This document shows positions 17,230 through 46,226 of a stretch of DNA of 64,000 nt, in pieces. The DNA is taken from assembly GCF_038396675.1 (NCBI RefSeq), contig NC_088931.1:70698501-70762500 (forward strand), written 5' to 3'. A program made the position numbers and the translations under genes. Each line of letters begins with the position of its first letter. The first letter of the stretch is position 1. The DNA comes from Hydra vulgaris (Eukaryota; Cnidaria; Hydrozoa; Anthoathecata; Hydridae). The notes under the pieces were generated by a model. It was not told the DNA's origin. It did not search any database and worked only from the letters and a program-made list of their open reading frames with translations.

Positions 17230-20200
17230 TTATATGAAACGAAAGCTTTCATTAAATGAAATCAAAGCATCTCATCATAAGCTAATATATTTAAAAAAAA
17301 AAATTTAATTCAATCTTCGCTTTCTCAAATTAATCTTGGAAACTTTTGCATTTTTCTCAAGAAAACAACTTTAACGAGCTTTTTCTCAAGAATATAATGT
17401 TAATGATCTTTTTCTTAAGAACCGGCAACGTTAAGAGTTTTTAACTTGAAAGAGAAAAGATGATGATTGTAGAGCAAGATAACGATTGACGGACGACTTA
17501 AAAGATTGCAAACCATATGAATCAGGAAAGCAAGATGAAGGAAGCGATTTCCAAAGAACTGATGTTCGAGAAAAAAAACTAGACGAATAAGCGTTTTTGG
17601 AGCACTTAGAAACAGTCAAAGAAAATGGATGACACTTAATTGAATGACGAGTAACACGAGAATGAATTTTAGTAGATGGCACAAAAGACGCTAGCTCTTT
17701 AGAGCAGTGCCCATTATAGTATTTGTAGAAAAGAGAAAGAGAAGCAACAATATGACGATGTGATAATGGTTAGAGGTTGGCTGCAAGAGCAGGTCCAACT
17801 ATGTTTACAATGTGTTTTTGCACCTTGTCTAAAAGAGAAAGGGCATCATTAGAAGATCCGCCCCAGATATGGCAACAGTATTCCATACAAGGCCGGATTT
17901 AAGATTTATAGAGATAGAGAATAGAATCCGAAGTAAGAAAGTGACGAGCTCAATAAAGAGATGCAACCTTAGCAGATGCTAATTTTGCAACTGATTTGAT
18001 ATATGGTTTCCAAGAAAGATTAGAAGTAGGAGTTAATCCTAGAAGATGAAGAGTAGGAGACTCATCGAGTACATCACCGTTTATAAATATAGGAAGATCT
18101 AAATTATTGCGATAACGATTGGCTGAAAAAAATTGAGTTTTATCTGAATTAAAGTTCACCAGCCTCTGTGAGCCCCATGCTGTAGCAGAAGTGAGATCCT
18201 TTTCAAGCACAAATGCCCCCTCCAAGCAATCAGAGGGTGTTGGTTTCATATCACGACAAGAATAAATGGTAGTATCATCAGCAAACAATGCCACCTTAGA
18301 TGTGAGAATATCTGGAAGATCGTTAATGTAAATTAAAAAAAGTATAGGGCCAAGGATAGAACCTTGAGGAACCCCTGAAGTTACAGAATAAGAAGAAGAG
18401 TGTTGTCCATCGAGGACAACATTTATGCTACGATTGGAAAGGAAGGATTCAATGATCTTAAATATGTTGCCAGATACACCATAAGAAGAAAGCTTATGGA
18501 GAAGACCAGCATGCCAAACTTTATCAAAAGCTTTTGAAATGTCAAGAGCGATGGCCTTAACCTCTCCACCTTCATCTAATGCACGATAAAACCTGTCAGT
18601 TATTACTGTTAGCAAATCAGCTGTAGAACAAGAAGATCGAAATCCATATTGATGGTCAGAAAGTAAGTTATTAGATTCAAGATGAGAAATTAAGTGATTG
18701 TTAATTAAAGATTCAAAAACCTTGCTAATGATAGGAAGAAGACTTATGGGACGGTAGTTAGACGAATCAGATTGCTCTCCAGAATTTTTGAAAATAGGAA
18801 TAACAGATGCCGCTTTCCATCAGGCTGGAAAACAAGACTCTGATAAGCACTTTGAGAGTATAGAGACAGCTGCGGAGAACACTTCTGCAAGACAATAATA
18901 GGTATGTTGTCCGGGTCACAAGCTGTAGAAGATTCTACGCAGGAAATCACTTTAGATACAGATGCTGGAGTTATATGAATGTCAAGCAATGGATCAACCT
19001 GTTTGTTGGCAATATCAGGTAGAACGCAACTAGTGGAATCAAGAGATGATATTGATGAAAAGTTTTTAGCAAACAACTCGGCTTTGTCTTTTGGTGTGGT
19101 GACAAAGTCTGAACTATACAAGAGAGGTAAAATTAAAGATTTACCCTTATTATTAATACTATTAAAGATTCTCCAGAAGTCACGAGAGCCTAATTTTTGA
19201 GTGGAGATACGAGATTTCATGACCTGAGAATAGCGGGTTTTGGTTTTTTTTCTTTAAAATATATTAGCGTTAGACAATACCTTTTTACAATTGTTTCTAG
19301 CAGTAATAAACAGACGTCTGTTTTCTGGAGAATTGTTTTGCTGATAAATATGGAAGTAACGGTTTCGATTGGCAATCGCAGCAGCACAGTGAGAGGAAAA
19401 CCATGGAGAAGAGTGAGGCTTGACCTGGAATCTTCGAGAGGGAAAAAAAGATTGCATGCCAGCCCGAATCCACGAAGTTATGTAAGAAGCACATTTTTCG
19501 ACAGGAAGACGAAAGATTTCTACCCAAGGGCCATCACGAAGAAAATCACGGAAAGAATCCCAGTCAGCTTTACTGTAGTTGTAAGAGGTTCGATAATAGG
19601 GGGATTCAGGTGATGAAGAAGAATGAGATATTAGTTTTAAAGAGATCAAACTGTGATCAGAAGAACCTAAAGGTGAATGTGGAGAAACTGAGCACTGACT
19701 AGGATCAGAAACAAGACATAAGTCGAGTAGAGAAGGTAGATGATTCGGGTTGTTAGGAAAGCGAGTTGGAAAGTTGACTATTTGAGTTAGAGATTGAGAA
19801 AGACAAAAGTTGAGGGCTTTAATGCCTGCAGAGTCACTGACACTAGAGCCAAGCCATTCAGAGTGGTGAGCATTAAAGTCACCGACAACAACTATATTAG
19901 CTGATGGATAAAGAGAGAGGGCTTGGTCAATATGATCAGAAATAACATCAAAAAGAGTGCAGTCTTGAGATGAAGGAGAGCGATATAGAACAAAGAGAAA
20001 AGCAATAGAGTGAAGTGGTGCTAAACGAAAACACATGAAACAATAGTCTGTGGATTCAAACCTAGTTTCACGACAAATGGGTAAATTCTTACGAATGTTA
20101 ATGCCCAGGCCAAGTATGTGACTATTGGAGTCTTTATGTTTTAGAGGCAGATAACCATCAACACTAAGATCACAAGATGAGACAGCCGAACTCAAATTAG

Positions 20201-21050
20201 TCTCACAAAGAGCGAGTAGGTCTGGTGAACTTTGCAAGAGATAAGACTCAACAGAAGAAGAGTTACTTCGAAGACCACGAATATTAGTGAATGATAGGTT
20301 TAGAGAACTTGGTGATGATGATGGTTTTTTGTGTTTTATAGTTTTCGGTTCTTTAGTCATTTTAAATTTGTTGAAGAACTTGACTCAAAGCATAGATAGT
20401 ACTCAGAACACCATTTAATAGCCCAAGCAATTGCCTCATTACAACTAATAAACCCTAAGCCGTAAACGCAGGGCTTCAAATGTGGCCTCCGCAATGCACA
20501 CCAGAAGTACAAGCAGGGATACCATCCATGCGCAACATGGCACTGTTAATGCTTTGATATTTTTCAGCTGTTGATGGAATCAGCCTCTCTGAGAGCTACC
20601 ACAGAGTTCGGGAAACCTGACTACCAGCCAGCCTCAGAACCATAAAACTGAGTTTTAGAGCTGTACCCTCATTCGGAGATATTAGAATGAGTTGCCTAAT
20701 CATAAAATCAGAGACACAATGTATTAAAAATACATCTGCGCCAGCCTAATAGATGAAGAAAGGATGCGAGGCTTGTCAACAGATAGAATCTGTGTACCCC
20801 TTAAGTCTTTGCCTAGGAGGCCTTCTACAAGACAGTAGCCGGGTGCATTTAACATCTGCCCAAGATGAGTATCTTTATCGAGACACCATCTCTAGCCTTT
20901 ACTCAACCAAGAGCCCTAAGGCAGGGGGTGTTTTAAATTTGAGTTGGCATCTCCTAGCCTTTGCCTAAAAAGGCGTATCCTACAAGGCAGCAGGACATGA
21001 AGCAGATTGTACTGGGTTACATGTTACCAGTAGCAGGATAACCTAATCTG
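17230..21050 (-). mobile_element. Decayed APE/RT LINE, nearly full length
   Basis: One minus-strand non-LTR retrotransposon of about 3.8 kb. It has a structured, less AT-rich 5' region at 20361-21050, an APE endonuclease frame, an RT frame, a C-terminal tail and a 3' UTR running to about 17230. The boundaries are estimated from composition and coding extent. No target-site duplication or poly(A) tail was resolved. The clade is not assigned (jockey-like/CR1-like organisation). Confidence 0.75.
17431..20360 (-). pseudogene. LINE ORF2 remnant: endonuclease + reverse transcriptase
   Basis: The endonuclease part (20360-19254, 368 codons open) has NLSFTNIRGLRSN, LLALCETNLS, VVVGDFNAHHSEWLG and GSSDHSLISL, the APE-type nuclease motifs. 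The RT part runs through 19220-18744 and, after a frameshift, 18615-17950. It includes VKAIALDISKAFDKVWH, SGVPQGSILGPILFLIYIND and the catalytic FADDTTIY. The tail has MEYCCHIWGG, PSSCFPDSYGLQSFKSSV and a stop near 17431. Between 17760 and 17960 three codons read as stops where Arg or Gln is expected (Y-stop-A, S-stop-I, L-stop-P), all explainable by C-to-T change. There are at least three frameshifts. The element supplied target-primed reverse transcription when active and is now dead. Confidence 0.85.
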
Positions 21051-21880: not shown

Positions 21881-24600
21881 CTGAGTTTAAATAAATTATT
21901 TATGTTAATTAACTTTGTTTTGTTTTTTATCGTAATTAAGCAAAAGTAATTAAGTCAACTTTTACTAGCATAAAAATCTTACTATTCAAACTATTTTCAA
22001 ATTGACCTTTGAACTTGTTTGATTAGTTTTGTTCAGAAAAAGATAAGTCAAGTAGGAAAACAATTTAGTTATGTTGACCAAAAAGTGTCTTAATATATTG
22101 CAATGATTTACAAAGGCAGTAAAGTACATCAAACTAAGATTTTTGTTCTATTAGATTTGTGTGATTCAGTTTATTAAGTTTTTAGCAAAATTTAAAATTC
22201 TTTATGCCTAAAAAGAATCTTAAAAATATTTTATATGACATTTTCCTGAAAAATATTTTATATAACATTTACCCAAAAATATTTATTATGACATTTTTTA
22301 AATTTGCTTAGTAAACTGAAATTAGACATTAAAAATTTAAAAATGGTCCGCAAAATGGAATAAAAAAGTTTCTAAAATTAGTTTGAGAAAACGATTATTG
22401 AATTACATTATTATTCCTTAAAATATATTTGTTTTTATTTAGCTCGTAATGAGATCGTATAATGAAAGCTATAAATAAAGCTTGACGGAAATATAAGCTA
22501 TTAATTTTTAACAAAAATTAATAGCTTATATTTCAATTGAATTGTAAGTATTCATTTTGTTTTAATTACATAAAAATACTAATACTCATCAATAACTTAA
22601 GACGTCATGAATGAGGATGTTAGACGTTAGGATAGGCGAAATGAGGATAAGCGTTTGATAATTTAAGAATCCAAAAATATATCGTCACATGGGAATTATA
22701 AGATTTTATCTAACATTTTTTATGTTGTAAGATTTTTTTAAATACTGCATTGTTAAAATGCTTTACTGCTGTTATTTTTTATAAATATTAACTATAATAT
22801 TATATTTGTACGAATGGTATAGTTACTATATTATAGTTTTACGAACTTTATTATAAGTTTTACGTATACTTTATTATAAGTTTTACGTAATAATAGTATA
22901 AGTTTTACTATATTATACTATATTATAAGTTTTACGTATACTATATTATAAGCTTTACGTAAAGTTGGTACACGTCGTTTATGTTATTTCTGTTTCATGA
23001 TAAAACTTATGATGTGATTTGTATAACTATTAAGATGTTTTTTTTTTTAATAGTTGTTAATCAAAACCTCAGTTCCTAAATTCTTATAACATAAAAAAGT
23101 ACCCTTTAAGTTTTCTGGGACGATATAGAAGTAAAGTATATCCTAAATTCCAAAATTAAAACACGCTTTAGAAGAAATTGACCGTTGAAATTTTTTGATT
23201 TTTTTACATTCCCAAATAATGACCCATTAAGGTCAATTTAAAGCAACAAGTTGTATAATTTTTTATTAATTAAATTTTTTTTAAAAGATGTTAAAAAGGT
23301 TAAAAATGAGTTAAAAACTTAATTACTTACAAATATTTAAATATTCGTAAGTAATTAAGTTTTTATATGATAATTTAATAATATAAATAAATAACATAAT
23401 TACAAAAATAATATAAAATAATTTTATAACTATAAAATTATGTTATTAAATCGTTTACTTTAAAATCAAGTAAAAAAATGGAAAACTGAAAATTTAAAGA
23501 AGGCGCAATAAACGAAAGGGAAAAAAGGCAAACTGTGTCACGCTCTAGGGAGAGGAGGGATTAGTGGTTTTGAGAAGATTCGTTTGGGACTTGTTACTAA
23601 AGAGTTACGATGTTGTGACGAGGGGATTGGAGGGGATCAAAGACGATTATTTTTTTGCATGACGTAGTTTATGAACGACTCCCAAGTATCTATTTATTCC
23701 CCCAGTATCTTTTCTTATTTTATTTATTATTTTGTCCTTATTTATACTTAATAAAATGTTTTCGTCCATTCTCATAAACATAGCGAAGAGTTTATTTTTA
23801 GAAATTTGATAATAATCTACATTAACAATATTGTTTATCTTGCCAACTACAAACACGTCTATCGTTTATTTAAGAATGTTGAAGAAAGTTTGCAAGCTAA
23901 TTTATTTATCATGTCTTTATTTGTTTGTTAATCTACTTCAATGAAATAAAAAGAATAAAAAATACTCTTTCCTATAATTTTGCCGTTTTTTTTTTTTATT
24001 TGCTAGTCGATTTTTTAAGATTACGATTTAAAAACGTGATTTCTACTGGTTGGCTTTTGCTCTAAAATATTCCAATAATGTAACATCCATTTGATAAATA
24101 TTTTTTGTTTATTTCTTTTTAAAACTCATTATTTTTAGTTTTGACTTTTTAAATTGCTCATTATTAAAAACAATATTAGTTTTAGCTTATTTTAAAAAAC
24201 AGGTTATATCTTCGCATATATAAGACTAATTATATATCTGAAAAAATTGATTCATGGTTCTTTAGTTTAACTCAAGATAACGTGTTCTTTAGTTTAACTC
24301 AAGATAAAATTTTTCAAACTGTTTTTTCTCGCATAAACATTCTTTTTTCCTCTTTAGTGATTTCTGCGCACTTTTAACACTTTTTTTTTATCTTACTAAA
24401 AAGTGTCTCCTCTCCCTATCTTTCTTAAAAATGTCTCCTCTCCCGATCTTTCTTAAAAGTGTCTTCTCTGCCGACCTTTCTTCAAAATGTCTTATCTGCT
24501 GAGCAACTTTATTTGCGTATGCAATTATTCAGCAAAAGTAACCATATCATATTGAGCTTTTCTATTATATTCAAGAAACCTTTTTTACAAAAAAATATAT
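21881..24600. other. Gene-free AT-rich DNA with minor repeats
   Basis: No recognised gene. It includes a hairpin at 22488-22534, a roughly 25-bp minisatellite (TTATAAGTTTTACGTA words) at about 22840-22975, and a 30-bp, 3-4-copy repeat (AAGTGTCTCCTCTCC type) at about 24400-24490. A 69-codon minus-strand frame at 23647-23856 has no recognisable motif and is not called. Confidence 0.45.
22488..22534. repeat. Perfect 22-bp inverted repeat, 3-nt loop
   Basis: Arms at 22488-22509 and 22513-22534 are exact reverse complements around AAC. The perfection suggests recent formation. Confidence 0.8.
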
Positions 24601-24610
24601 ATAGTTTTCA

Positions 24611-24713
24611 TATTTTTCAAAATAATTGATATAGGGCTTATAAATTGATTTTTTGGCTAAACATAAAAGTCTGCATAGTTGTAGTCTTTAATAATTATAT
24701 TTTTAGAAGATGA
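24611..24713. repeat. ~100-bp inverted-repeat partner (left)
   Basis: This is the reverse complement, with few differences, of 31398-31488 (shared TTTTTGGCTAAA, AAAGTCTGCATAGTTG, CAAAATAATTGATATAGGG). The pair brackets the LINE and 76-bp satellite region. Confidence 0.7.
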
Positions 24714-25059
24714 CTTTACCGTATTTTTAAGATCTTTAAAACTATAAAGATTCTTTTCTTTTCAATAGCTTATTTTAATCTATGGTGAAATGAATAAATA
24801 AACATGATATGTATGACTGTTCCTAATATAAAATGTTTTATTTTCTTTAGTTTTGGATTCTGCAGAATTGAATATTAACGAAAAAGCTTGGATTTGATTT
24901 GACTGCTGTAATTAATTGCAATCAAAACTAATGCTGATAATAGTATCAAAAGAAAATAAAGTTTCTTATTTTTAAAGCTTTTTCAAGGCGCCATAAATAA
25001 AGGTTATTATATTTTTTTCTCTTATCGAAACAGAAGTTTTATGATATACAGTCAAATGT

Positions 25060-25286
25060 CTTAATTTACAAGGTAACAAACTGGTTCAAAAGATATTTAT
25101 CAAACCAAAAATAATATGTTTCCTCTAATGATGTTTATCAAAAAAGATTTATTAGATATATCCTGTGGTGTTCCGCAAGGTTCTATATTAAGACCATATC
25201 CCTTCTTGATTTATATAAATGACATGAATAAAGCCTCAAATCTACTTAGTATTATGTTTGCGGACGACACTTAACTTTTTTTTTTC
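25060..25286 (+). pseudogene. LINE reverse-transcriptase fragment upstream of satellite
   Basis: The plus-strand reading gives WFKRYLSNQ, then ISCGVPQGSI, FLIYINDMNKASNLLSIM and the catalytic FADDT at about 25255-25272. It runs directly into the first satellite monomer. The first-monomer sequence continues the same reading frame (FSNN, then ICKLFSTMFK), with stops where codons have decayed. CR1/L2-like. Confidence 0.75.
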
Positions 25287-28200
25287 TAATAATTAAATTT
25301 GTAAACTTTTTTCTACTATGTTCAAATAAAACTTTTCTACCAGCTTCAAATGTAACAAACTTTAATAATTAAATTTGTAAACTTTTTTCTACTATGTTCA
25401 AATAAAACTTTTCTACCAGCTTCAAATGTAACAAACTTTAATAATTAAATTTGTAAACTTTTTTCTACTATGTTCAAATAAAACTTTTCTACCAGCTTCA
25501 AATGTAACAAACTTTAATAATTAAATTTGTAAACTTTTTTCTACTATGTCCAAATAAAACTTTTCTACCAGCTTCAAATGTAACAAACTTTAATAATTAA
25601 ATTTGTAAACTTTTTTCTACTATGTCCAAATAAAACTTTTCTACCAGCTTCAAATGTAACAAACTTTAATAATTAAATTTGTAAACTTTTTTCTACTATG
25701 TTCAAATAAAACTTTTTTACCAGCTTCAAATGTAACAAACTTTAATAATTAAATTTGTAAACTTTTTTCTACTATGTTCAAATAAAACTTTTCTACCAGC
25801 TTCAAATGTAACAAACTTTAATAACTAAATTTGTAAACTTTTTTCTACTATGTTCAAATAAAACTTTTCTACCAGCTTCAAATGTAACAAACTTTAATAA
25901 TTAAATTTGTAAACTTTTTTCTACAATGTTCAAATAAAACTTTTCTACCAGCTTAAAATGCAACAAACTTTAATAATTAAATTTGTAAACTTTTTTCTAC
26001 AATGTTCAAATAAAACTTTTTTACCAGCTTCAAATGTAACAAACTTTAATAATTAAATTTGTAAACTTTTTTCTACTATGTTCAAATAAAACTTTTCTAC
26101 CAGCTTCAAATGTAACAAACTTTAATAATTAAATTTGTAAACTTTTTTCTACAATGTTCAAATAAAACTTTTTTACCAGCTTAAAATGCAACAAACTTTA
26201 ATAATTAAATTTGTAAACTTTTTTCTACTATGTCCAAATAAAACTTTTCTACCAGCTTCAAATGTAACAAACTTTAATAATTAAATTTGTAAACTTTTTT
26301 CTACTATGTTCAAATAAAACTTTTCTACCAGCTTCAAATGTAACAAACTTTAATAATTAAATTTGTAAACTTTTTTCTACAATGTTCAAATAAAACTTTT
26401 CTACCAGCTTCAAATGTAACAAACTTTAATAATTAAATTTGTAAACTTTTTTCTACTATGTTCAAATAAAACTTTTCTACCAGCTTCAAATGTAACAAAC
26501 TTTAATAATTAAATTTGTAAACTTTTTTCTACTATGTCCAAATAAAACTTTTCTACCAGCTCCAAATGTAACAAACTATTATAATTAAATTTGTAAACTT
26601 TTTTCTACTATGTCCAAATAAAACTTTTCTACCAGCTCCAAATGTAACAAACTTTAATAATTAAATTTGTAAACTTTTTTCTACAATGTTCAAATAAAAC
26701 TTTTCTACCAGCTTCAAATGTAACAAACTTTAATAATTAAATTTGTAAACTTTTTTCTACTATGTTCAAATAAAACTTTTCTACCAGCTTCAAATGTAAC
26801 AAACTTTAATAATTAAATTTGTAAACTTTTTTCTACTATGTTCAAATAAAACTTTTCTACCAGCTTCAAATGTAACAAACTTTAATAATTAAATTTGTAA
26901 ACTTTTTTCTACAATGTTCAAATAAAACTTTTTTACCAGCTTAAAATGCAACAAACTTTAATAATTAAATTTGTAAACTTTTTTCTACTATGTCCAAATA
27001 AAACTTTTCTACCAGCTTCAAATGTAACAAACTTTAATAATTAAATTTGTAAACTTTTTTCTACTATGTTCAAATAAAACTTTTCTACCAGCTTCAAATG
27101 TAACAAACTTTAATAATTAAATTTGTAAACTTTTTTCTACTATGTTCAAATAAAACTTTTCTACCAGCTTCAAATGTAACAAACTTTAATAATTAAATTT
27201 GTAAACTTTTTTCTACTAAGTTCAAATAAAACTTTTCTACCAGCTTCAAATGTAACAAACTTTAATAATTAAATTTGTAAACTTTTTTCTACTATGTCCA
27301 AATGAAACTTTTCTACCAGCTTCAAATGTAACAAACTTTAATAATTAAATTTGTAAACTTTTTTCTACTATGTCCAAATAAAACTTTTCTACCAGCTTCA
27401 AATGTAACAAACTTTAATAATTAAATTTGTAAACTTTTTTCTACTATGTTCAAATAAAACTTTTTTACCAGCTTCAAATGTAACAAACTTTAATAATTAA
27501 ATTTGTAAACTTTTTTCTACTATGTTCAAATAAAACTTTTCTACCAGCTTCAAATGTAACAAACTTTAATAATTAAATTTGTAAACTTTTTTCTACAATG
27601 TTCAAATAAAACTTTTTTACCAGCTTAAAATGCAACAAACTTTAATAATTAAATTTGTAAACTTTTTTCTACTATGTCCAAATAAAACTTTTCTACCAGC
27701 TTCAAATGTAACAAACTTTAATAATTAAATTTGTAAACTTTTTTCTACTATGTTCAAATAAAACTTTTCTACCAGCTTCAAATGTAACAAACTTTAATAA
27801 TTAAATTTGTAAACTTTTTTCTACAATGTTCAAATAAAACTTTTCTACCAGCTTCAAATGTAACAAACTTTAATAATTAAATTTGTAAACTTTTTTCTAC
27901 TATGTTCAAATAAAACTTTTCTACCAGCTTCAAATGTAACAAACTTTAATAATTAAATTTGTAAACTTTTTTCTACTATGTCCAAATAAAACTTTTCTAC
28001 CAGCTCCAAATGTAACAAACTATTATAATTAAATTTGTAAACTTTTTTCTACTATGTCCAAATAAAACTTTTCTACCAGCTCCAAATGTAACAAACTTTA
28101 ATAATTAAATTTGTAAACTTTTTTCTACAATGTTCAAATAAAACTTTTCTACCAGCTTCAAATGTAACAAACTTTAATAATTAAATTTGTAAACTTTTTT

Positions 28201-30758
28201 CTACTATGTTCAAATAAAACTTTTCTACCAGCTTCAAATGTAACAAACTTTAATAATTAAATTTGTAAACTTTTTTCTACTATGTTCAAATAAAACTTTT
28301 CTACCAGCTTCAAATGTAACAAACTTTAATAATTAAATTTGTAAACTTTTTTCTACAATGTTCAAATAAAACTTTTTTACCAGCTTAAAATGCAACAAAC
28401 TTTAATAATTAAATTTGTAAACTTTTTTCTACTATGTCCAAATAAAACTTTTCTACCAGCTTCAAATGTAACAAACTTTAATAATTAAATTTGTAAACTT
28501 TTTTCTACTATGTTCAAATAAAACTTTTCTACCAGCTTCAAATGTAACAAACTTTAATAATTAAATTTGTAAACTTTTTTCTACTATGTTCAAATAAAAC
28601 TTTTCTACCAGCTTCAAATGTAACAAACTTTAATAATTAAATTTGTAAACTTTTTTCTACTATGTTCAAATAAAACTTTTCTACCAGCTTCAAATGTAAC
28701 AAACTTTAATAATTAAATTTGTAAACTTTTTTCTACTATGTCCAAATGAAACTTTTCTACCAGCTTCAAATGTAACAAACTTTAATAATTAAATTTGTAA
28801 ACTTTTTTCTACTATGTCCAAATAAAACTTTTCTACCAGCTTCAAATGTAACAAACTTTAATAATTAAATTTGTAAACTTTTTTCTACTATGTTCAAATA
28901 AAACTTTTCTACCAGCTTCAAATGTAACAAACTTTAATAATTAAATTTGTAAACTTTTTTCTACAATGTTCAAATAAAACTTTTTTACCAGCTTAAAATG
29001 CAACAAACTTTAATAATTAAATTTGTAAACTTTTTTCTACTATGTCCAAATAAAACTTTTCTACCAGCTTCAAATGTAACAAACTTTAATAATTAAATTT
29101 GTAAACTTTTTTCTACTATGTTCAAATAAAACTTTTCTACCAGCTTCAAATGTAACAAACTTTAATAATTAAATTTGTAAACTTTTTTCTACTATGTTCA
29201 AATAAAACTTTTCTACCAGCTTCAAATGTAACAAACTTTAATAATTAAATTTGTAAACTTTTTTCTACTATGTTCAAATAAAACTTTTCTACCAGCTTCA
29301 AATGTAACAAACTTTAATAATTAAATTTGTAAACTTTTTTCTACTATGTCCAAATGAAACTTTTCTACCAGCTTCAAATGTAACAAACTTTAATAATTAA
29401 ATTTGTAAACTTTTTTCTACTATGTCCAAATAAAACTTTTCTACCAGCTTCAAATGTAACAAACTTTAATAATTAAATTTGTAAACTTTTTTCTACTATG
29501 TTCAAATAAAACTTTTTTACCAGCTTCAAATGTAACAAACTTTAATAATTAAATTTGTAAACTTTTTTCTACTATGTTCAAATAAAACTTTTCTACCAGC
29601 TTCAAATGTAACAAACTTTAATAATTAAATTTGTAAACTTTTTTCTACTATGTTCAAATAAAACTTTTCTACCAGCTTCAAATGTAACAAACTTTAATAA
29701 TTAAATTTGTAAACTTTTTTCAACTATGTTCAAATAAAACTTTTCTACCAGCTTCAAATGTAACAAACTTTAATAATTAAATTTGTAAACTTTTTTCTAC
29801 TATGTTCAAATAAAACTTTTCTACCAGCTTCAAATGTAACAAAATTTAATAACTAAATTTGTAAACTTTTTTCTACTATGTTCAAATAAAACTTTTCTAC
29901 CAGCTTCAAATGTAACAAACTTTAATAATTAAATTTGTAAACTTTTTTCTACAATGTTCAAATAAAACTTTTCTACCAGCTTAAAATGCAACAAACTTTA
30001 ATAAATAAATTTGTAAACTTTTTTCTACAATGTTCAAATAAAACTTTTCTACCAGCTTCAAATGTAACAAACTTTAATAATTAAATTTGTAAACTTTTTT
30101 CTACTATGTCCAAATAAAACTTTTCTACCAGCTTCAAATGTAACAAACTTTAATAATTAAATTTGTAAACTTTTTTCTACTATGTCCAAATAAAATTTTT
30201 CTACCAGCTTCAAATGTAACAAACTTTAATAATTAAATTTGTAAACTTTTTTCTACTATGTTCAAATAAAACTTTTCTACCAGCTTCAAATGTAACAAAC
30301 TTTAATAATTAAATTTGTAAACTTTTTTCAACTATGTTCAAATAAAACTTTTCTACCAGCTTCAAATGTAACAAACTTTAATAATTAAATTTGTAAACTT
30401 TTTTCTACTATGTTCAAATAAAACTTTTTTACCAGCTTCAAATGTAACAAACTTTAATAATTAAATTTGTAAACTTTTTTCTACTATGTTCAAATAAAAC
30501 TTTTCTACCAGCTTCAAATGTAACAAACTTTAATAATTAAATTTGTAAACTTTTTTCTACTATGTTCAAATAAAACTTTTCTACCAGCTTCAAATGTAAC
30601 AAACTTTAATAATTAAATTTGTAAACTTTTTTCTACTATGTTCAAATAAAACTTTTCTACCAGCTTCAAATGTAACAAACTTTAATAATTAAATTTGTAA
30701 ACTTTTTTCTACTATGTTCAAATAAAACTTTTCTACCAGCTTCAAATGTAACAAACTT
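25287..30758. repeat. 76-bp satellite, 72 monomers, LINE-derived
   Basis: A unit starting TAATAATTAAATTTGTAAAC recurs every 76 bp from 25287 until the last TAAT at 30759. The span of 5,472 bp is exactly 72 x 76, so there is no net insertion or deletion. Diagnostic variants are ACAATG versus ACTATG, GTCC versus GTTC, TTTTTACC versus TTCTACC, TTAAAATGC, TCCAAATG, AAATGAAAC and ACTATTATAATT. They recur in blocks, giving higher-order repeats. Read in the frame of the flanking RT, one monomer gives ICKLFSTMFK, a stop, then NFSTSFKCNKL, which is the LINE segment after FADDT. Since 76 is not a multiple of 3, the array cannot be coding. Confidence 0.97.
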
Positions 30759-31178
30759 TAATAGTAATAAGCATAGTTTTTTTCATTCGCTTAAAAAAAA
30801 TCCACTCATAAATCTGACACTTCATTTTTATTGACCAAATTGAGATTAAAAGAGACTGTGTTACAAAATTTTTTTAAATATTCTTGTAAAGACACATTTC
30901 ATGGAAATATCACATTAATTAAATCTGAACAAAAATTTCATAAATATTGAAACTTTGTATAAAACTAAAGATTAAATAAAAAGAGCTTACCCCAACTTTT
31001 TTGCTCGTTTATTCATAACTAATTAAGTTATGCAAATATTACCTGGGGAAGTACTAACAAAAATAGAATGAAACGTCTTTGTAACCGTCAGAAGCACGCA
31101 ATTCGTATTATTAATTTGCGGATCGTCATCCTTAATCAAAGCCTGCATCCAACGTAATGAGATATCTTAGTATATATA
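30759..31178 (+). pseudogene. LINE RT downstream of satellite
   Basis: The reading resumes where the array stops: after FKCNKL comes a decayed segment, then STHKSDTSFL, TWKCHI-like text, and ANITWGSTNKNRMKRLCN and RQKHAIRII-like words. This order is that of a LINE thumb and C-terminal tail. Frames are broken by several stops. With the piece at 25060 it makes one LINE copy split by the satellite. Confidence 0.65.
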
Positions 31179-31759
31179 TAAAGTAAATGTATTCGATGAC
31201 TTATGTTTTGTATACATATGGAAAACAAGAAATAGTCAGATATGTCATTTGTGATTTTTAACTTCAAGTTATTGCAACGACTTTATTTTCATATAAAACT
31301 GGTGAAGTAATACGACTTTTCATATTAAACAGGTGAAGTAATACAATTTTTCATATTGGTACAGGATGTTATTTCATGAAATGAAATAACATCCGGTAAA
31401 AATATAATCCTTAAAGACTGCAACTATGCAGACTTTTATATTTAGCCAAAAAATTTAAGAAACCCTATATCAATTATTTTGAAAAATGTAACAAAATCAA
31501 AAAAATCTGTACAAAAATTTTATAAATATTGAAACTTTGTATAAAACTAGAGGTTAAACAAAAAGAGCTTGTCCCGACTTTTTTGCTCGTTTATTCATAA
31601 CTAGTTAAGTTATGCAAATATTGCTTGGGGAAGTACTAATAAAAATAGAATGAAACATCTTTGTAACCGTCAGAAGCACGCAATTCGTATTATTAAATTG
31701 CGGATCATCTTACTTAATCAAAGCCTTCATCCAACGTAATGAGATATCTTAGTATATAT
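30925..31759. repeat. Direct duplication of LINE tail (two ~254-bp copies)
   Basis: Segments 30925-31178 and 31507-31759 are about 90% identical by eye and in the same orientation, both covering the LINE C-terminal coding tail. Between them are a 14-bp-arm hairpin (31364-31394), a doubled GGTGAAGTAATAC sentence, and the inverted-repeat partner of 24611-24713 at 31398-31488. Confidence 0.8.
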
Positions 31760-44937: not shown

Positions 44938-46226
44938 TTAGGTAACCAAAAAAGTTCGTGCGGTTTTTGGTAATTGAATTGTTTTTAGCATTTTTTACAA
45001 TACCCACATCGCACAAGGCAAGTAGCTTTGTTGCGAAATAGAACGCGAGTGTCACGCGCAGTTGCTGCATATATAGTGTAGGCTTGTAACGAGCTTACAG
45101 GAAAGGTTTTGTGTAAAGAAAGGATGGCAACCCAACCAACGATTATTCGATCTTGCTTACTTTACGAGTTCAAACTTGGAAGGAATGCAACACAAGCGGC
45201 CAAAAACATCTGCACAGCATTTAGAGAAGGTACAGTAAGTGAACGCACAGCACAGAAGTGGTTTCAGCGATTCTCTTCGGGAGATGAGTCCATTGAAGAC
45301 CTGCCGCGTTCTGGACGCCCATTGTTGGTTGATGAGGATGAACTGAAGGACGCTGTCGAGTCTGACTCCAGCCAAACTTGCCAAGAACTTGCAGTGAGGT
45401 TTGCTGTGAGTGTTGAAACCATCCGCCTGCATCTGCATGCGATTAGGAAAGCGTGGAAGCTGAGTCGGTGGGTTCCGCACAAATTGTCGATCGACAACAA
45501 GAAGCAACGGCTTACGATCTGCACATCACTCTCATCACGCCACAATGTTGAGCCTTTTCTTGATCGTTTATTGACATGCGACGAAAAATGGATTGTGTAC
45601 AACAATACTAAGCGTTGCTATCATTGGTTGTCCCCCGATGACCCCATCCCAAAGACACCCAAGCCCAATATCCACGAGCGGAAGGTTTTGCTCTGCATTT
45701 GGTGGACTACAGCTGGTGAGGTGCATTACGAGCTGCTCCCAACAGGCCAAACCATTACTGGGCTGGTCTACTCAGCACAGCTGCAACGAGTTCACGACCT
45801 GTTGCTTGTAAAGCAGCCTGCACTGGTGCACAGGAGAGGAGTTCTGCTTCTCCACGACAACGCGAGACCGTACACCGCTCGCGTGACTCAGGACAAGCTC
45901 CAAAGCCTTGGTTGGGAGAGTTTGCCTCATCCACCATACTCGCCAGACCTCTCCCCTACTGATTTCCATTTTTTCCTTTCCCTGGGAAATCATTTAAAAG
46001 GACAACAGTTCCGAGACCAGGACGCGGTTGAAATGGAGTTGAAAGCTTTTATAGACTCAAAGGACCGAGAATTTTTTAGAAGTGGAATAAATAAGCTTGT
46101 TTTACGTTGGGAAAAGGTTTTAGATGCTAATGGTGACTATTTTAATGAATAAATGTACTTACTTTTGTCGTTTTGTGTGTTTTTATTATATACGAAAAAA
46201 CCGCACGAACTTTTTTGGTTACCTGA
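44938..46226 (+). mobile_element. Complete mariner transposon (1,289 bp)
   Basis: TIR tips TTAGGTAACCAAAAAAGTTC (left) and TCAGGTAACCAAAAAAGTTC (right, reversed) continue to GTGCGGTTTTT, with 1 mismatch in 31. TA flanks both sides. The length is typical of mariner. The internal sequence is visibly richer in G+C than the surrounding DNA. The single transposase frame is intact. Confidence 0.95.
45109..46152 (+). CDS. Mariner transposase, intact
   Basis: This enzyme is a cut-and-paste DDD transposase that binds the TIRs and inserts at TA dinucleotides. The frame opens at 45109. The Met at 45124 (MATQPTIIRS) is the likelier start, giving 342 residues. The N-terminal HTH region (NATQAAKNICTAF, TAQKWFQRFSSGDESIEDLP, SGRPLLVD) is followed by WVPHKLS and the catalytic motifs TCDEKWIVYNN, LLHDNARPYTA and YSPDLSPTDFHFF. 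Counting from the D of HDNAR to the D of SPTD gives 34 intervening residues, so this is D,D34D, the mariner signature. No stop or frameshift is present. With near-identical TIRs this copy looks recently inserted and could be active. Confidence 0.95.
   Translation: MCKERMATQPTIIRSCLLYEFKLGRNATQAAKNICTAFREGTVSERTAQKWFQRFSSGDESIEDLPRSGRPLLVDEDELKDAVESDSSQTCQELAVRFAVSVETIRLHLHAIRKAWKLSRWVPHKLSIDNKKQRLTICTSLSSRHNVEPFLDRLLTCDEKWIVYNNTKRCYHWLSPDDPIPKTPKPNIHERKVLLCIWWTTAGEVHYELLPTGQTITGLVYSAQLQRVHDLLLVKQPALVHRRGVLLLHDNARPYTARVTQDKLQSLGWESLPHPPYSPDLSPTDFHFFLSLGNHLKGQQFRDQDAVEMELKAFIDSKDREFFRSGINKLVLRWEKVLDANGDYFNE

Follow-up and report, generated by a model that had tools for sequence, protein, structure and literature searches.

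A 72-unit tandem array inside a decayed LINE copy of Hydra vulgaris and its probable origin in place

For most satellites the origin of the repeat unit has been lost. The window analysed here, a stretch of 64,000 nucleotides from the genome of Hydra vulgaris, holds a 5.5-kb array of a 76-bp unit beside the catalytic FADDT box of a LINE reverse transcriptase (RT), and raises the question of where such a unit came from and how it multiplied. Satellites from LINE coding regions are on record, the cases described in PMC9659126 being HinfI of chicken, from CR1, and PROsat and Pvc 20, from LINE-1 ORF2; a table in PMC6947457 likewise pairs HinfI with CR1 and PROsat with LINE-1. Hence, the kind of event considered here is already known. 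For Hydra, PMC12220107 describes a local spread of some TE subfamilies that suggests tandem duplication. We found no description of the 76-bp array in the titles and abstract beginnings of the open-licence papers listed.

The array and the LINE copy that holds it

The locus consists of the following parts:

25062..25286, + strand: 5' part of the LINE copy, an RT fragment running to the catalytic FADDT; relatives align from about 25062, with identity up to 88%
25287..30758, + strand: tandem array of 72 head-to-tail 76-bp units, from TRF and from cutting every 76 bases
25287..25291, + strand: TAATA, microhomology copy at the left breakpoint, from the breakpoint comparison
30759..30763, + strand: TAATA, microhomology copy at the right breakpoint, where the LINE resumes, from the breakpoint comparison and the TRF end at 30763
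30759..31225, + strand: decayed 3' continuation of the LINE; relatives align over the left flank, one monomer and the right flank

TRF delimited the array as 25287-30763 with a period of 76, 72.1 copies, 97% matches and a score of 10429, and cutting 25287-30758 every 76 bases gave exactly 72 units with 0 indels. These units fall into 16 types with 14 variable columns, 30 of the 72 being identical to the consensus, and the mean pairwise divergence among the 72 monomers is 2.4%. The first three and the last four units hold the consensus sequence, and outer monomers equal inner ones in their distance to it, so that homogenisation and recent growth are not distinguishable by this measure. The copy number comes from a single assembly, and in the published assembly that is most like it, raw Nanopore reads served to close gaps ahead of polishing (PMC12220107), a procedure by which the array, or its length, might have been created as an artefact. 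However, distinct variant units recurring in ordered runs (see below) are unexpected from noisy gap filling, as is the freedom from indels across all units, and we regard an artefact as very unlikely. Within some units TRF also picked up a weak 24-bp period (TTCTAC...TTCAAAT; 59-79% matches).

A single LINE copy riddled with stops, spanning about 25062-31225, encloses the array, which shares its orientation and register. To the left of the array, in the frame 24900+3n, RT text runs to FADDT at the array's very edge and is followed directly by a stop, which bears out the original prediction that the array breaks one LINE copy right after this box. On its right, where the same prediction had the LINE text resuming past the last monomer, LINE-like text is indeed found; though decayed and in broken frames, it aligns to the relatives of the left part. 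For most relatives the alignment to the window copy begins near 25062 and extends to about 31225 or ends sooner. The left RT piece itself scores 17.1 bits against Pfam RVT_1 (E 0.0048), short of the curated threshold of 29.6. With the same model the young relative L038 reaches 104.1 bits in its open frame, whose best solved-structure match is an R2 retrotransposon protein (E 5.7e-8). With an RT carrying the FADD box and a dispersed family of copies, the parent is a non-LTR retrotransposon (LINE), whose clade we take, as a guess, to be CR1 or L2. Both CR1 and L2 are named among the active Hydra elements in PMC12220107.

Several other features of the window lie around this copy. An inverted repeat (24612-24705 and 31397-31487, 89% over 94 bp) flanks both the array and the LINE copy, and a query of 24590-24780 gave 6 listed genome matches, two of which are the arms themselves. 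We considered these arms as transposon ends carrying the array and rejected the idea, having seen no evidence of their moving it. A 257-bp LINE 3' piece occurs twice, at 30921-31177 and 31503-31759, with 93% identity and 582 bp apart, and the right arm of the inverted repeat lies between its two copies. A second, less decayed LINE at 17431-20384 on the - strand has long open frames that include an RT and, beside it, one that resembles an endonuclease. The 356-aa open frame at 45082-46152 on the + strand resembles a mariner-type transposase.

The amplified segment in related copies and in the genome

To what does the unit correspond in copies of the same LINE that carry no array? The genome searched was the window's own (911.5 Mb, 15 contigs), in which the window occupies 70,698,501-70,762,500 of contig 12. 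When the 5' flank alone was used as query, 1203 first-look candidates came up, of which 40 were scored and listed, namely the window and 39 others; together with L012, recovered by the monomer search, these 39 make up the 40 related copies examined. The 3' side was compared only via relatives recovered with the 5' flank and the monomer. As a measure of spacing we projected bases 25281 and 30786 onto each copy and took the distance between their homologues, which is 5,504 bp in the window and 108 bp once the array is reduced to one unit. Among the related copies it is 113-144 bp in 30 of 40 and 40-75 bp in four (L019, L024, L034 and L037), while in two a deletion makes the projected value negative, with the segment kept in L033 and lost in L048; four more (L022, L023, L028 and L046) have no 3' anchor from which it could be measured. 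No spacing above 144 bp was found in any of the 36 measurable copies.

Direct matching of the monomer gave the same picture: at the DNA level exactly one in-place match is present in 24 of the 40 related copies, none in 16 and two or more in 0. Thus the original prediction's test, that relatives should carry the segment once, turned out in its favour, and a tandem repeat of the amplified segment is absent from all 40 copies examined. A model of flank, one monomer and flank aligned over the monomer as a single stretch to 26 of the 28 loci tested; with 5 double fetches set aside, 21 of 23 distinct copies align across it, four of these (L019, L024, L034 and L037) with a large gap within the segment. 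Against 500 dinucleotide shuffles of the monomer the real score tops all in 21 of the 40 copies, is reached by 1 shuffle in L019, 2 in L030 and 11 in L024, and in the remaining 16 is reached by 43-459. Eleven of these 16 form a diverged young subfamily in which the segment survives at the protein level, as SNSDIYLLFSVMNKELQNISKWFKSNKL in 8 of the 11 and with slight differences in the other 3; identity within the subfamily is 96.5-99.6% for the five members compared, and its identity to the 5' flank of the window copy is about 75%. The other five are L022, L023, L034, L037 and L048; much of the segment is missing from L034 and L037, and L048 has lost it through a deletion beginning just upstream. 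In L022 and L023 the alignment ends within the first ~15 bases of the segment. Relatives lacking the segment had been named beforehand as evidence that would speak against the prediction: all or part of it is indeed lacking in L019, L024, L034, L037 and L048, and the single match in 24 of 40 copies stands on the other side. We also considered a hot spot of deletion or insertion at the segment, whose 30-base bins have about 5-11% deleted positions among 28 related copies, and dropped the idea because several bins elsewhere show 6-9% and one as much as 22%.

The likeness extends to the translated text and to the detail of the alignment. The protein of L026, NNDVCKLFSTMNDELKNISTWFKCNKL, parallels the ICKLFSTM...NFSTSFKCNKL of the monomer, and the unit is homologous to a defined internal part of the mobile element, as in other arrays derived from TEs. 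In relatives including L026, L016 and L035 the anchors stand 124 bp apart, 16 bp further than the 108 bp of the one-unit model. The alignments split this surplus in two, with about 6 bp falling mid-unit and about 10-11 bp at the 3' end. Both short stretches are missing from all 72 monomers, and these losses, like the stops, are common to every unit; hence, the unit is a decayed LINE segment rather than a verbatim one, and the losses predate the amplification or were spread early. The earlier description of the monomer as the next LINE segment therefore holds for its homology and register and not for its exact text. As 76 is not a multiple of 3, the reading frame shifts between successive units.

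Outside the array the unit was found, among the matches listed, only as part of the LINE. A search with 214 bp of the array listed 41 matches, 32 within the array and 9 elsewhere, the best of the latter with E 6.6e-10, and all 9 of these listed off-array matches are single monomer copies aligned to LINE flank too. A 29-base piece of the monomer, scanned against the genome with as many as 3 mismatches tolerated, hit 73 sites. Of these, 72 lie in the array, one per unit, all units falling within the 3 mismatches, and the 73rd lies in the LINE relative L010 on the array's own contig. The counts from both the monomer search and the scan are lower bounds. The reversed 29-base control pattern had 0 hits in the genome, and a scan of viral contigs with a monomer pattern found no match. 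L027 and L040 each have an extra monomer match, which we rejected as copies: these are only 45-46 bp long, partial, AT-rich and away from the expected place. All but one of the 73 pattern hits fall within the array, and each of the 9 matches listed elsewhere belongs to a LINE copy; on these results the array occupies one locus rather than forming a dispersed satellite, and neither the monomer search nor the pattern scan of the genome found a second array of the unit. The dispersal free of LINE flanks that would have contradicted the original prediction was thus not encountered in these searches. The word satellite, as used there, is generous for one 5.5-kb locus, given that satellite DNA forms many arrays or very large blocks, and fits the structure alone.

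These results bear on the possibility that a pre-existing satellite was captured by, or interrupts, the LINE copy and resembles it by chance. The translated match of the monomer is short and AT-rich, in 16 of 40 relatives its score does not clearly exceed the shuffles, and the partial matches in L027 and L040 lie elsewhere, all of which such a capture would accommodate. Yet the scores in 21 relatives lie above every shuffle, the monomer occupies the homologous place in an in-register alignment that contradicts capture, and the genome searches showed no other array; we consider capture extremely improbable. Single-copy relatives, one genomic locus and the anchor spacing together indicate instead that a single dead LINE copy gave rise to the array where it now stands, as had been proposed for this LINE-internal piece.

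Breakpoints, repeated runs and a proposed course of growth

In the one-unit model the two edges of the segment share 5 bp, TAATA, and relatives without the amplification, L035 for one, likewise have a TAATA word at either edge. At least 5 shared bases occur at 2.3% of the 58,108 76-bp breakpoints tested in the rest of the window and at 0 of 272 within the LINE part alone. Given the 2.3% chance rate, TAATA lends modest support to the microhomology start that had been suggested from these words: they are present at both edges as described, and the start itself is plausible on the strength of 5 bp.

Later steps left a record in the order of variant units, where two runs recur:

26047..27186, + strand: monomers 11-25, a 15-unit run recurring 19 units later (15 consecutive units identical at lag 19)
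27491..28630, + strand: monomers 30-44, partner of the 15-unit run (lag-19 identity)
28251..28858, + strand: monomers 40-47, an 8-unit run recurring directly (identical to the next 8 units)
28859..29466, + strand: monomers 48-55, partner of the 8-unit run (lag-8 identity)

The 15-unit run includes 8 non-consensus units and the 8-unit run 4, and such repetition is the trace that unequal exchange or block duplication would be expected to leave.

We propose the following course of events: 1) One LINE copy, its 5' part missing and probably truncated, would have inserted and then decayed through stops and small deletions. 2) In this dead copy the 76-bp stretch just past the catalytic FADD box would have been duplicated head to tail, probably via template switching or end joining at the repeated TAATA. 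3) Unequal exchange, or an equivalent block duplication, would then have carried the array to 72 units and left the runs at offsets 19 and 8. Alternatively, the first tandem copies might date from retrotransposition, made as the RT slipped or jumped along the RNA, and not from a subsequent event in chromosomal DNA; template jumping between the TAATA words could give a first duplication. Against this, the units differ by 2.4% on average versus the 12% that separates the 5' flank of the window copy from its nearest listed relative, losses and stops are common to all units, and the repeated runs came afterwards, so that we consider an origin during retrotransposition unlikely. Taken as a whole, the account in which a 76-bp segment of a dead LINE was duplicated, probably at TAATA, and then grew in place to 72 units is very probably correct, and the array looks like one caught near its birth.

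Small tandem duplications were also found, by TRF and by direct reading, among the 40 related copies, either within the aligned LINE or at its margin. These are a 20-bp duplication in about 3 copies (L025 1881-1940), 21-bp duplications in about 3 to 5.5 copies (L030 1113-1201, L031 1123-1210 and L047 1140-1255) and a 26-bp duplication in two copies (L035 1655-1706). Possibly they are earlier stages of the same process, which may be a common one with the 72-unit array as its extreme.

Known systems and the meaning for Hydra

Single-locus minisatellites or VNTRs share with this array the confinement to a single place in the genome, a unit length of tens of bp and variant units in repeated runs. 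To our knowledge few of them have a unit of known origin, in contrast to the present case, where the origin is known. Among LINE-derived satellites, HinfI (SCR1) of chicken is likewise a tandem repeat that holds part of a LINE, CR1 including partial ORF2 (PMC9659126). According to the account in PMC9659126, it covers the CR1 3' UTR and partial ORF2, whereas the Hydra unit consists of 76 bp of RT coding sequence only; the Hydra array is, moreover, still within its parent LINE copy at one locus. PROsat of Phodopus roborovskii and Pvc 20 of the harbour seal, like the present unit, are similar to LINE ORF2, and for PROsat the similarity to LINE-1 ORF2 is described as limited to a small region (PMC9659126). 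PisTR-A of pea and the central repeats of Drosophila DINE resemble the Hydra case in that their units were amplified from inside a mobile element, but as described in PMC9659126 these units come from repeats already present in the element, while no relative examined here has the segment tandemly repeated.

What is unusual about the Hydra locus is that the parent, the breakpoints and the later steps are all readable at one place. As a tentative and rather doubtful extension, dead LINE copies of this genome might repeatedly yield short tandem duplications, mostly remaining at 2 to 5-6 copies, with this locus a rare one that has run to 72, and the family might thereby form a graded series of satellite birth inside a single genome, possibly still changing in clonally propagated animals. 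With the parent copy, breakpoints, unamplified relatives and later runs together, models of how arrays start and grow can be checked on a concrete case, and if copy number differs among strains or cell lineages of Hydra, the growth of an array would become directly measurable.
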